Shown here piece after piece: positions 22,636 through 45,970 of a DNA stretch of 64,000 bases. Under the pieces are notes generated by a model. It saw only the letters and a program-made list of their open reading frames with translations, ran no database searches and was not told the origin of the DNA. The DNA is from Armatimonadota bacterium (GTDB taxonomy: Bacteria > Armatimonadota > Hebobacteria > CAIYQO01). Location: positions 1 through 64,000 of the forward strand of contig JAKPKV010000078.1 in assembly GCA_029553475.1 (NCBI GenBank), in the 5' to 3' direction. The position numbers and the translations under genes were made by a program. Position 1 is the first letter of the stretch. Each line of letters starts with the position of its first letter.

Positions 22636-22675
22636 CCCGCGCCGCGGCGCGCCTGCCGGCCCACCATAACCAGCT

Positions 22676-22801
22676 GTAGGGAACGCCCTCCGTGGCGTTC
22701 CTGGTCGCCACAGGGTTGAGCCGCTGCGGGCGAGAGCCAGTTGTTGACCGAGGGCGGCTCGACACAAGGCGCACCGGAACGCCAGGGACGACGTTCCCTA
22801 C
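22676..22801. repeat. Inverted-repeat element (family A), about 126 bp
   Basis: Arms 22676-22703 (starts GTAGGGAACGCCCTCC) and 22774-22801 match as inverted repeats at 24 of 28 positions. The interior has a nested GAGCCGC/GCGGCTC stem. The flank to the right contains CGTGACAACCCGCTACA (about 22824-22840), the same end sequence as the 25294-25515 element. It occupies most of the gap between two plus-strand genes. Confidence 0.7.
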
Positions 22802-22856
22802 GATAGACGAGGCAAAGTCTATCGTGACAACCCGCTACAACCAGGAACGAGAAACC

Positions 22857-23910: not shown

Positions 23911-24940
23911 TCAATTCGCAGAGCAGATTTCACTGATTTTCAGATACATCTGCTCCTGACCGTACACGCCACTGTTGTAAAACAGCGCGAGCTGGCCCGT
24001 CGCGAGCGCCAGCAGGTGATGGCGCCAAAAATTATCGCCTTCACCATCCCGGATGGCGTCCGGAGGCATCGCCTGAATCCATTCCATCGGTTCAGGGCAC
24101 CAGTGCCAGTTTTGCACCGGCCACGCCTCGTCACAATAGGCGAATCCCCCCAGGCTCGGGGGAGGTTCTTCTCGTGAGGCCAGGGTATCCGTGGGATCGG
24201 GAGCGGTCGGGGAAGCATTGAGCACGGCAATCCAGCGATGAGACGTTCCGGGGAACAACTGCAACCCCCCGACCCAACCGGACGCCCAGTGTCCGGATTG
24301 CTGGCATGGAGGAAGGATGATGCCCTGCTTCGTCGCCATTGTCTCCCCGGCCCGGTGCACGGCTACCGCCTGTGCGGATGATTCGGCGCCGTTGCGCCGC
24401 ATCGGGGTATCCCATATAAAAATACAGAAAACTCTCCCTCTCCGGGAAGAAATACCCCGACACTGCATCAATATGCTTGGCATCGAAGGCGCCGGCTTCA
24501 CCCCGCGGGATGCAGGCTGCGGACTCCAGCGTCCACGGGCCGGCCAGCGTAGAGGCTGTGGCACGCTGGACGACCTTATGCCCGCCGGGAGTACTGACGG
24601 TCAGCAGATAATACTCCCCCTCGACGCACGCTGCCCGGTTCGGGTGATAGGGATCCATCACCACAAAGGGTTTATGGGTTGCCCCACCCAGCAGCGCGTC
24701 CGGATTGGTGAAGACCAGCGCCTCCGGCTCGCTCCACTGTCCCGGCCCGACGGCCTCCGGCGTGAGACAGACGGATTGCCCATGCCCCGGCGGGTCAAAA
24801 AACAAGAACATCCGCCACCCAGTGATCGCCTCATCCCAGACAATACAGGGGTCCCCTACCACATGACAGCCCGGTCCGTGGGCATTCCGCGTCAGCACGG
24901 CGCCCAGACGGGACAAGGTATGGGGAATAGCATACGTCAT
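23911..24940 (-). pseudogene. Frameshifted five-bladed-propeller glycosidase-like gene (GH43/GH130 type)
   Basis: The first 180 codons from the ATG at 24940 (GGAGG ribosome binding site) read 'MTYAIPHTLSRLGAVLTRNAHGPGCHVVGDPCIVWDEAITGWRMFLFFDPP...' to 'FLYFYMGYPDAAQ'. Coding character then jumps frame near 24395-24410 to '...NGAESSAQAVAVHRAGETMATKQGIIL' and continues to 'QMYLKISEICSAN' at the stop at 23911. The propeller-type repeats (ending in strings like 'GYFFPERESFLYFYMGY') resemble GH43/GH130/GH32 glycosidases. It overlaps the upstream broken gene by ATGA. Either a recent pseudogene or an assembly error; resequencing would decide. Confidence 0.65.
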
Positions 24941-25267
24941 AAATCCTCCGCTCCATACGGCTTTTGCGCGCGAAGACGGTTGTCATCCGCTCCCAATGCA
25001 GGATACTCCACACCGGCATCCCAGAACAAGCGGTTCAGAAGAACGAACACACCGTGACCATGATCGCCGGGAACGCTGAGGTGGACTGCACAAAATTCCT
25101 GTGCAGTTGCTTGGTACCGGTGGACGATGCCGGCAGCATGCCGAACGTCTCCTGCAGCCACTTGCGCGCGATGCGCCGCTGGCGCGTGCCGATCTGGAAT
25201 ATTTCCTGCCAAGCTTTGCCTGCTGAAGCCGGTCTGGCGAAAACAGAGAGTCATAGCGCCTCCTCAT
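24937..25267 (-). pseudogene. Degraded gene of unknown function, three frame segments
   Basis: Protein-like sequence moves through three frames: 'MRRRYDSLFSPDRLQQA' from the ATG at 25267, then 'AWQEIFQIGTRQRRIARKWLQETFGMLPASSTGTKQLHRNF', then 'VHLSVPGDHGHGVFVLLNRLFWDAGVEYPALGADDNRLRAQKPYGAEDL' to the stop at 24937. The last frame overlaps the next start as ATGA and a short intact frame starting at 25254 (GAGGAGG ribosome binding site) shares it. The stitched protein, about 108 aa, is unfamiliar. This reading is by eye; the alternative is a genuine 105-aa protein in the single frame 24937-25254. The gene starts 27 bases from the end of the MITE-like element at 25294. Confidence 0.45.
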
Positions 25268-25293
25268 ACCATCGCCAATGCTAGTATACATAC

Positions 25294-25515
25294 TGTAGTG
25301 GGCCGTCACGCTGTACCTTGTGCCTTCAAACACGCCACCGGTAGTCCGCGCCCTCCGCGGCGCGTGGTGACGCATTGCTCCACCGCTTGCCAGCCGAAGC
25401 TTTAGCGAAGGCTGGTGCCCGATGCTGGTGTTGTCGGACACGGGTGCGCATGTCGGTCACACGCGCCGCGGAGGGCGCGGACTACAGAGCACGGTACAAC
25501 GTGACAACCCGCTAC
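25294..25515. mobile_element. MITE-like element (family B, copy 1) with 24-bp terminal inverted repeats and 8-bp target duplication
   Basis: Ends 25294-25317 (TGTAGTGGGCCGTCACGC...) and 25493-25516 match as inverted repeats at 20 of 24. A second inner pair, starting GTAGTCCGCGCCCTCCGCGG at 25341 and mirrored at 25456-25485, gives about 29 more bases. The element is flanked on both sides by ATACATAC (25286-25293 and 25516-25523), an apparent target-site duplication. The interior holds CCAGCC...GGCTGG and GTGCCCGA...TCGGACAC hairpins. No open frame inside, so it must rely on a transposase in trans. A partial second copy is at 44103-44263. Confidence 0.8.
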
Positions 25516-25696
25516 ATACATACGTCTAGATTGCCTGCCCCCTCATCTGTCTAGATTTTTTTGCAGTATTATGTTATACAGTTGCATGAGAGCGCTTGCT
25601 TGTATGGTAAAATGGGGGTGATATAGAGAAAGGGGCGATTCAAACTCCGTATAGTGTCTGCCGTGTGAAGAACAACGTATTAAGGAGATTGTTATA
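25516..25696. other. AT-rich intergenic leader upstream of the HsdR-N gene
   Basis: About 180 bases with conspicuously low G+C compared with the rest of the window (25540-25620 and 25660-25696). TTGCAT at 25582 and TAAAAT at 25608 look promoter-like but are 20 bases apart. The composition suggests DNA acquired from another source. Confidence 0.4.
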
Positions 25697-26437
25697 ATGG
25701 AGCCTGTCGAAGCGTCGAGCGCGCCCGCGCCGGAGAAGCCCAAAGCCGTGAAACGCAGTATGCCCGCCTGGGAAGAGGCGGCGCGTGATCGGTTGAAAGC
25801 CGCAGTCAAGAAATATCAAAAGCCGCTCGCTGACCTTGTAGAACGTGATGTGAATGAAGCCGATATTCGCCTGTTCATCACTGATTTTCTCTGTGACGCA
25901 CTGGGCTATGATAAGTACAGCGACCTTTCGACGGAATACCGCGTCAAAGGCGAGTATGCCGATTATGGCGTACGGATCGACAAGCAGCTTGTCGCATTCA
26001 TCGAGGTGAAGCGCCCATCAACCGTACTGGGAACCAAGCACCTGCGCCAGGTGGAGATGTACGCGGTCAATGAAGGCGTAGAGTGGATCATCTTAACAAA
26101 TGGGGCCGTGTGGCAGATATATCACGTTACGGGTGGCCTTCCTGTTGTCATTGATCTTGCCTTCGCGGTCAACTTGCTCGGCGAAGAATCCGTAGCCAAG
26201 AAAGCCGAATCCCTCTACTACCTGACGAAGGAGTCGTTGAAGCGCCGCCAGATTGACGAGTTGTGGAAGGCTAAGCGCGCTATGTCTCCCAAATCACTCG
26301 CGCAGATTGTGTGCTCTGCCGCGGTGACCGAGGCGATCCGTAAGGAGTTGAAGCGCCAGACGGGATATAGCACGGAAGCCGCAGACATTATCCGCGTGTT
26401 GAAAGAGGTGGTTATCAGACCTGGATGTTGCGAATGA
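25697..26437 (+). CDS. Solitary HsdR N-terminal-type nuclease domain protein
   Basis: 246 aa. A charged, Pro-rich N-terminus precedes a PD-(D/E)xK nuclease core of the type I restriction HsdR N-terminal family: Asp89 in EYADYGVRID, Glu103 and Lys105 in AFIEVKRPS, and Gln118 in RQVEMYAVNEGVEWIILTNGAVWQIYHV. The ATPase/helicase part of HsdR is absent, and no hsdM or hsdS is nearby. The helical C-terminus has Ser/Lys-rich text I do not recognise. AAGGAG precedes the start. Solo HsdR-N proteins are common and often of unknown role; defence, DNA repair or domestication are all possible. Its codon use is less GC-biased than its neighbours. Confidence 0.8.
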   Translation: MEPVEASSAPAPEKPKAVKRSMPAWEEAARDRLKAAVKKYQKPLADLVERDVNEADIRLFITDFLCDALGYDKYSDLSTEYRVKGEYADYGVRIDKQLVAFIEVKRPSTVLGTKHLRQVEMYAVNEGVEWIILTNGAVWQIYHVTGGLPVVIDLAFAVNLLGEESVAKKAESLYYLTKESLKRRQIDELWKAKRAMSPKSLAQIVCSAAVTEAIRKELKRQTGYSTEAADIIRVLKEVVIRPGCCE

Positions 26438-43808: not shown

Positions 43809-43954
43809 CTGGAGGGCGAGACTCCGTCGAGCCGCGCGCGTCAGCACCACTGCCGCCTCTCTTCATACGTTGGTGTGTAGCACCCGCTCAAAGGTATATC
43901 GAAATGTGATTACCGGCCCTTACGCGCGCGGCTCGACGGCGTCTCGCCCTCCAG
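43809..43954. repeat. Inverted-repeat element (family C), 146 bp
   Basis: Arms 43809-43841 and 43922-43954 (start CTGGAGGGCGAGAC) are inverted repeats with one mismatch in 33. No clear target duplication and no open frame inside. A 20-base fragment (19 identical) is at 45971-45990, so there were several copies. It lies within the 528-base gap of the multi-protein system. Confidence 0.75.
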
Positions 43955-44012
43955 AACATGCGGCGCTTCGTGTCTCCGCAAAAACGAATGCCTTTCGCTC
44001 ATACGCACCTCA

Positions 44013-44102
44013 ATAAATGGTGGCAGGTACGAATAATTCCGCCGTTCCACGCACGTATCACGTGATCCACCCGCAATTATTCGTGCCTGTTACCATTTAT
44101 TC
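44013..44102. repeat. AT-rich inverted-repeat element (family D), 90 bp
   Basis: Arms 44013-44039 (AATAAATGGTGGCAGGTACG...) and 44076-44102 match as inverted repeats at 24 of 27. The interior contains ATCACGTGAT, a short palindrome. It adjoins, and apparently interrupts, the left part of the family B copy at 44103. It differs in composition from its GC-rich neighbours, suggesting an independent origin. Confidence 0.75.
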
Positions 44103-44263
44103 GCATTTCTCCACCGTTTGCCAGCCGAAGCTTTAGCGAAGGCTGGTGCCCGACGCTGGTGTTGTCGGACACGGTGTCGCCTTTTGGTCACACGCGCCGC
44201 GGAGGGCGCGGACTACGGGTGGCTCGGCGATGGGACAAGGTACAGCGTGAACGACCACTACAA
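44103..44263. mobile_element. Partial MITE-like element (family B, copy 2), 161 bp
   Basis: Aligns with 25371-25516 from CGCATT onwards, including the CCAGCC...GGCTGG hairpin, the inner repeat arm ending GGAGGGCGCGGACTAC and the outer end 44240-44263, which matches the left end of copy 1 in inverted form at 21 of 24. The left half is missing where element D begins, so it is a truncated copy. Confidence 0.72.
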
Positions 44264-45885: not shown

Positions 45886-45970
45886 CGGAGTTCCGCCAAG
45901 AAAATTTGGTATATCCCTTTATACGCTGACCGGACGCGCACCTGCCGAATACAGCGCGTATTTTCCGGGC

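Follow-up and report, generated by a model that had tools for sequence, protein, structure and literature searches.

The window examined here is a stretch of 64,000 nucleotides on contig C5 of an Armatimonadota bacterium genome (5.27 Mb in 194 contigs; GenBank assembly GCA_029553475.1). Between a minus-strand open reading frame (ORF) at 24937-25254 and a plus-strand ORF at 25697-26437 with a match to the HsdR N-terminal domain HSDR_N_2 lies an intergenic element that starts with TGTAGTGGGCCGTCAC and ends with GTGACAACCCGCTACA (Table 1). A GTG-start ORF on the minus strand (24983-25441) that overlaps the element was not accepted as coding, and an Rfam search gave no match at this position. A first-pass annotation had described a MITE-like element of 222 bases; the non-coding element is real, and its ends, TGTAG...CTACA, bring its length to 223 bp. 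The outer 24-bp inverted repeats named in that annotation are indeed present, with 20 of 24 positions matching, so that the element is short, non-coding and bounded by terminal inverted repeats (TIRs), as a MITE is. The sequence ATACATAC does stand on both sides, but it had been counted as an 8-bp target duplication because the A that closes the element on the right is also the first A of the right-hand ATACATAC; the duplication at this copy is 7 bp long.

Table 1. Positions in the window of the element, its parts and its relatives.
Feature	Position	Strand	Remarks
Whole MITE copy	25294-25516	+	223 bp, non-coding, ends TGTAG...CTACA
Left TIR, TGTAGTGGGCCGTCACGCTGTACC	25294-25317	+	IS481-type end
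Right TIR, TGTAGCGGGTTGTCACGTTGTACC (minus-strand reading)	25493-25516	-	20/24 identical to the left TIR
Left target duplication, TACATAC	25287-25293		7 bp, window copy
Right target duplication, TACATAC	25517-25523		7 bp, window copy
Left REP1 of the REPIN	25341-25366	+	GTAG tag, hairpin CGCGCC-CTCCGC-GGCGCG
Right REP1 of the REPIN, inverted	25460-25485	-	
Central 27-bp palindrome, GCCAGCCGAAGCTTTAGCGAAGGCTGG	25389-25415		In the 145-bp REPIN form, missing from the 115-bp form
Second copy of the window element	44102-44262	+	Left part missing; adjoins another inverted repeat (44012-44101)
Third element	22675-22839 (within 22669-22845)	+	REP2-type REPIN, IS481-type right end; overlooked by the first-pass annotation

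The element belongs to a large family. A search of its own genome with the 222-bp query returned a full copy that is 94% identical and dozens more (about 40 related sites in total). This genome has 95 exact matches to the end motif TGTAGYGGGYYGTCAC, and 184 sites when up to one mismatch is allowed, compared with 2 sites for a reversed-pattern control. Facing ends were paired in selected stretches of the genome, which gave 67 candidate elements, and the duplication statistics use the 46 of these that were clean. With the ends set at TGTAG...CTACA, an exact 6-bp duplication was found in 16 of the 46 (permutation mean, 0.47; maximum, 5 in 2000 permutations), and 24 of the 46 had 6-bp duplications with at least 5 of 6 positions matching (permutation mean, 2.3). 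No other duplication length was similarly enriched, and a 7-bp duplication was seen at the window copy alone. The duplications have the consensus N[C/G]TAN[C], with examples such as GCTAGC, TCTAGC, CCTAAC, ACTACC, and AGTAAT. The copies thus carry the target duplications that are typical of MITEs.

These numbers bear on the proposal that the element is a MITE of an 8-bp-duplication transposon family unrelated to IS481, for which the ATACATAC on each side of the window copy had spoken. Exact 8-bp duplications are found in 0 of the 46 clean elements, and the genome contains an IS481-family element that shares these ends and has 6-bp duplications (see below); we therefore regard this proposal as extremely improbable and as refuted by the family statistics. 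The strand of the window element was also found to fold far more strongly than its shuffles (z = -8), and its location between genes, upstream of the ORF at 25697, would likewise suit a functional regulatory or structural hairpin, such as a transcription or mRNA-stability signal, that is kept by selection and is not mobile. This is very unlikely, since the target duplications and scattered sites show insertion, the interior and the length of the element vary among copies, and the window element gave no match to a terminator-like site.

No transposase is encoded in the window, as the first-pass annotation had stated, but one is encoded elsewhere in the assembly. Contigs C102 and C105 both start within one and the same 124-bp element end, from which an intact partner element was traced at C49:51796-52816 (1,021 bp) with ends matching those of the MITE, the duplication GCTAGC, and one 314-amino-acid ORF for a DDE transposase. 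The autonomous element predicted earlier was to have 8-bp duplications, and it was the wrong target, as the duplication measures 6 bp in the family and 7 bp at the window copy. For the C49 transposase, the best NCBIfam model is IS481 transposase (residues 14 to 291 of 314), which it matches at 160 bits (cut-off, 224), and the Pfam model rve_3 matches above its cut-off. Two damaged relatives were found, a frameshifted one on C131 with the duplication GCTAGC, and a diverged and frameshifted IS481-family element (60% identical) on C186 (L082:1436-2459, which is G000:C186:224327-225350) with the duplication ATTAGG; the C49, C131 and C186 elements all have 6-bp duplications at NCTAGN-like sites. 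The C186 element is itself inserted within another element with IS481-type ends. Comparison of the translations of the C49 transposase and its relatives showed TDK beside the presumed catalytic Asp in the former and TDN in the latter, and for this reason another copy, such as one of those collapsed at contig ends, may be the active source of transposase. A scan of contigs with the C49 transposase returned one distant relative (48%), in a Blastocatellia MAG.

The target sites agree with what has been published for this family. For IS481, the rule is that the 6 bp NCTAGN are duplicated (PMC3053399, citing Stibitz 1998), and the same paper reports an insertion at CCTAAC, a target site that was seen twice in our analysis. 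ISRe46, an IS481-family element, has NCTAGN adjoining TGTTGCGGGTCATGACGTTG (PMC6794481), and its inverted repeat is identical to the MITE consensus at 17 of 20 positions.

The interior of the element has a structure of its own. The inner inverted repeat noted by the first-pass annotation is present as a perfect 26-bp repeat, but it had not been recognised as a REPIN: its arms, GTAG-TC-CGCGCC-CTCCGC-GGCGCG, each consist of a GTAG tag and a short hairpin, and stand in inverted pairs. REPs and REPINs are described as GTAG tag plus hairpin and as inverted pairs in two papers (PMC3733652, PMC3116915). We call this repeat REP1; it occurs at 106 sites with up to 3 mismatches in the own genome, compared with 0 for the control. 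The selected stretches contain 41 complete REP1 pairs: 22 lie between two IS481-type ends, 8 have such an end on one side only, and 11 have none. This ratio is not a census, because the pairs were sampled through TIR and REP matches. The central palindrome GCCAGCCGAAGCTTTAGCGAAGGCTGG was considered as a further independent repeat of this genome and rejected, because all 19 of its copies fall at element sites.

One could argue that the inner repeat is merely a part of the MITE and not an independent REPIN, and that the copies without ends are decayed MITEs. In line with this, the apparently free copies at C4:59975 and C132:52601 retain remnants of MITE arms, and no RAYT gene flanked by REP1 itself was found. 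(IS200-type Y1 transposases, which account for most Pfam Y1_Tnp matches, were considered as the mover of REP1 and rejected, with no REP1 nearby.) In nine free REP1 copies, however, the arms are 97% identical and the spacers only 62%, so that the arms are conserved and the spacers are not. A tree of REP1 copies places all MITE-borne copies in one clade (support 96/89) and divergent free pairs outside it; support is weak for many inner branches, and the MITE clade also includes four copies that had been scored as free, two of them with MITE-arm remnants. As all MITE-borne type-1 REPINs lie in one clade, the simplest reading is that REP1 was captured once and then spread by IS481-driven transposition. 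A related repeat, REP2 (GTAG-GGAACGCC-CTCCGT-GGCGTTCC), occurs at 59 sites, is found inside 15 further MITEs, and brackets a RAYT gene on C159 that scores 82 bits, above the NCBIfam cut-off of 80. A RAYT gene with its own REP alongside was thus seen for REP2 and not for REP1, which is the REP of the window element. Outside the own genome (G000), REP1 pairs at sites without TIRs were also found in G001, a genome of the same genus, with one locus common to both genomes. REP1 therefore behaves as an independently dispersed repeat, and we judge it quite unlikely that it is only a piece of the MITE.

Further cargo types were observed between IS481-type ends at L048, L052, L169-L178, and other loci, among them GGGATTAGGG-rich units in the own genome and GGGGAGGG palindromes in G002, a genome of another genus in the same family; IS481-type ends thus carry several unrelated palindromes. 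The shortened second copy that had been reported in the window was confirmed (Table 1); the 90-bp inverted repeat that it abuts has 30-nt arms (AATAAATGGTGGCAGGTACGAATAATTCCG) that are 87% complementary, and had no other copy in the genome stretches examined. A 36-nt inverted repeat (CTGGAGGGCGAGACTCCGTCGAGCC...) at 43809-43954 and again at 45968, whose core was found at 11 places in the stretches examined, is another dispersed palindromic repeat.

The relatives of this genome contain the parts in different combinations. In G001, IS481-type ends are few (8, compared with 6 for the control), and two MITEs carry REP2-like cargo. G002 has 54 IS481-type ends, compared with 0 for the control, and exact 6-bp duplications in four of ten elements; REP1 and REP2 were not detected there, and only other palindromic cargo was seen. 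In the remaining 18 relatives searched, the end motif was at background level. Since G001 has REP1 pairs without ends and G002 has ends without REP1 or REP2, the two parts exist apart and are joined in the own genome. At an orthologous locus in two congeneric species (L128/L182; G000:C2 ~113600 and G001:C50 ~5130), one REPIN site is shared, and another REPIN of ~116 bp is present in G000, with a short remnant only in G001. A search for an orthologous empty site did not find the flank of the window copy in G001 or G002.

From the observed ends, duplications, copy number, partner IS, REPs outside MITEs, and REP2-flanked RAYT gene, we consider it highly probable that the window element is a MITE that is moved in trans by an IS481-family transposase, and that its interior is a REPIN trapped between IS481-type ends, the composite having spread as a MITE. 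The IS481-family transposase, presumably of the C49 type and supplied from another locus of the genome, would recognise the TGTAGYGGGYYGTCAC ends in trans; the MITE would then be inserted at N[C/G]TANN sites, and 6 bp of the target would be duplicated. The two inverted, GTAG-tagged REP hairpins of the interior belong to a class that is ascribed to RAYT (Y1) transposases, and a RAYT probably made the REPIN; once caught between IS481-type ends, the REPIN would have become the cargo of a composite that multiplies as a MITE. That the MITE itself has moved, and that the C49-type transposase mobilises it, is what comparison of the sequences points to. Several observations count against this explanation, namely, the 7-bp repeat of the window copy, which departs from the 6-bp rule; the score of the C49 transposase below the NCBIfam IS481 cut-off and its TDK in place of TDN; and, for REP1, the lack of a flanked RAYT gene, the weak inner branches of the tree, and the four free-scored copies within the MITE clade.

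The GTAG tag at which RAYTs cut is also part of the IS481-type tip TGTAG, and a RAYT may therefore load REPIN cargo between IS481-type ends, trim it, or replace it, which would make the MITE a reloadable REPIN carrier. The third element in the window (22675-22839) suggests such an event, as its left TIR is lost exactly up to the GTAG that is common to TIR tip and REP tag, and its flanks (ACCAGC and ACCAGG) match at 5 of 6 positions. We put this forward as a speculative and rather unlikely extension of the nested REPIN-in-MITE explanation.

REPINs are thought to spread via RAYTs. In the genome studied here, most sampled REPINs of one type ride in a MITE that looks DDE-transposase driven, and as a consequence, how many REPINs there are and where they lie can become independent of the RAYT. 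The nesting of a REPIN within a MITE means that two selfish DNAs spread together, and because three related genomes have the parts in different combinations, the order in which free REPIN, REP-free MITE, and composite arose is directly testable.

The partner element resembles IS481 of Bordetella pertussis and ISRe46 of Rhodococcus equi in its DDE transposase related to the IS481 model, its length of ~1 kb, its ends starting with TGT, and its 6-bp NCTAGN-like duplication; it differs in scoring below the NCBIfam IS481 cut-off, and the window element differs from the IS481 family in having no transposase gene. Like the bacterial MITEs RUP, NEMIS, ERIC, and Nezha, the window element falls within 70 to 300 bp, is non-coding, and has TIRs, target duplications, and a putative transposase partner in trans. 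What sets it apart from them is an interior made up of a second element that is repeated independently, and ends that are shared by several unrelated palindromic cargoes. With the GTAG REPs and REPINs that are associated with RAYTs (PMC3733652, PMC3116915), REP1 has in common the GTAG tag, the short hairpin, the inverted doublet, and about 100 copies, and REP2 also the RAYT gene flanked by REP doublets; in contrast to them, most sampled copies here are inside a DDE-type MITE. Some Pseudomonas repeats join degenerate REPs to unrelated hairpins, and in the part of the source available (PMC3733652), they do so without DDE-type ends and target duplications. A literature search in which few subscription journals were covered returned no paper that joins REPINs with IS481-type MITEs. 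MITE, IS481, and REPIN are each of a kind already known; the nesting of a second mobility system within a MITE was not found described in the literature so searched.
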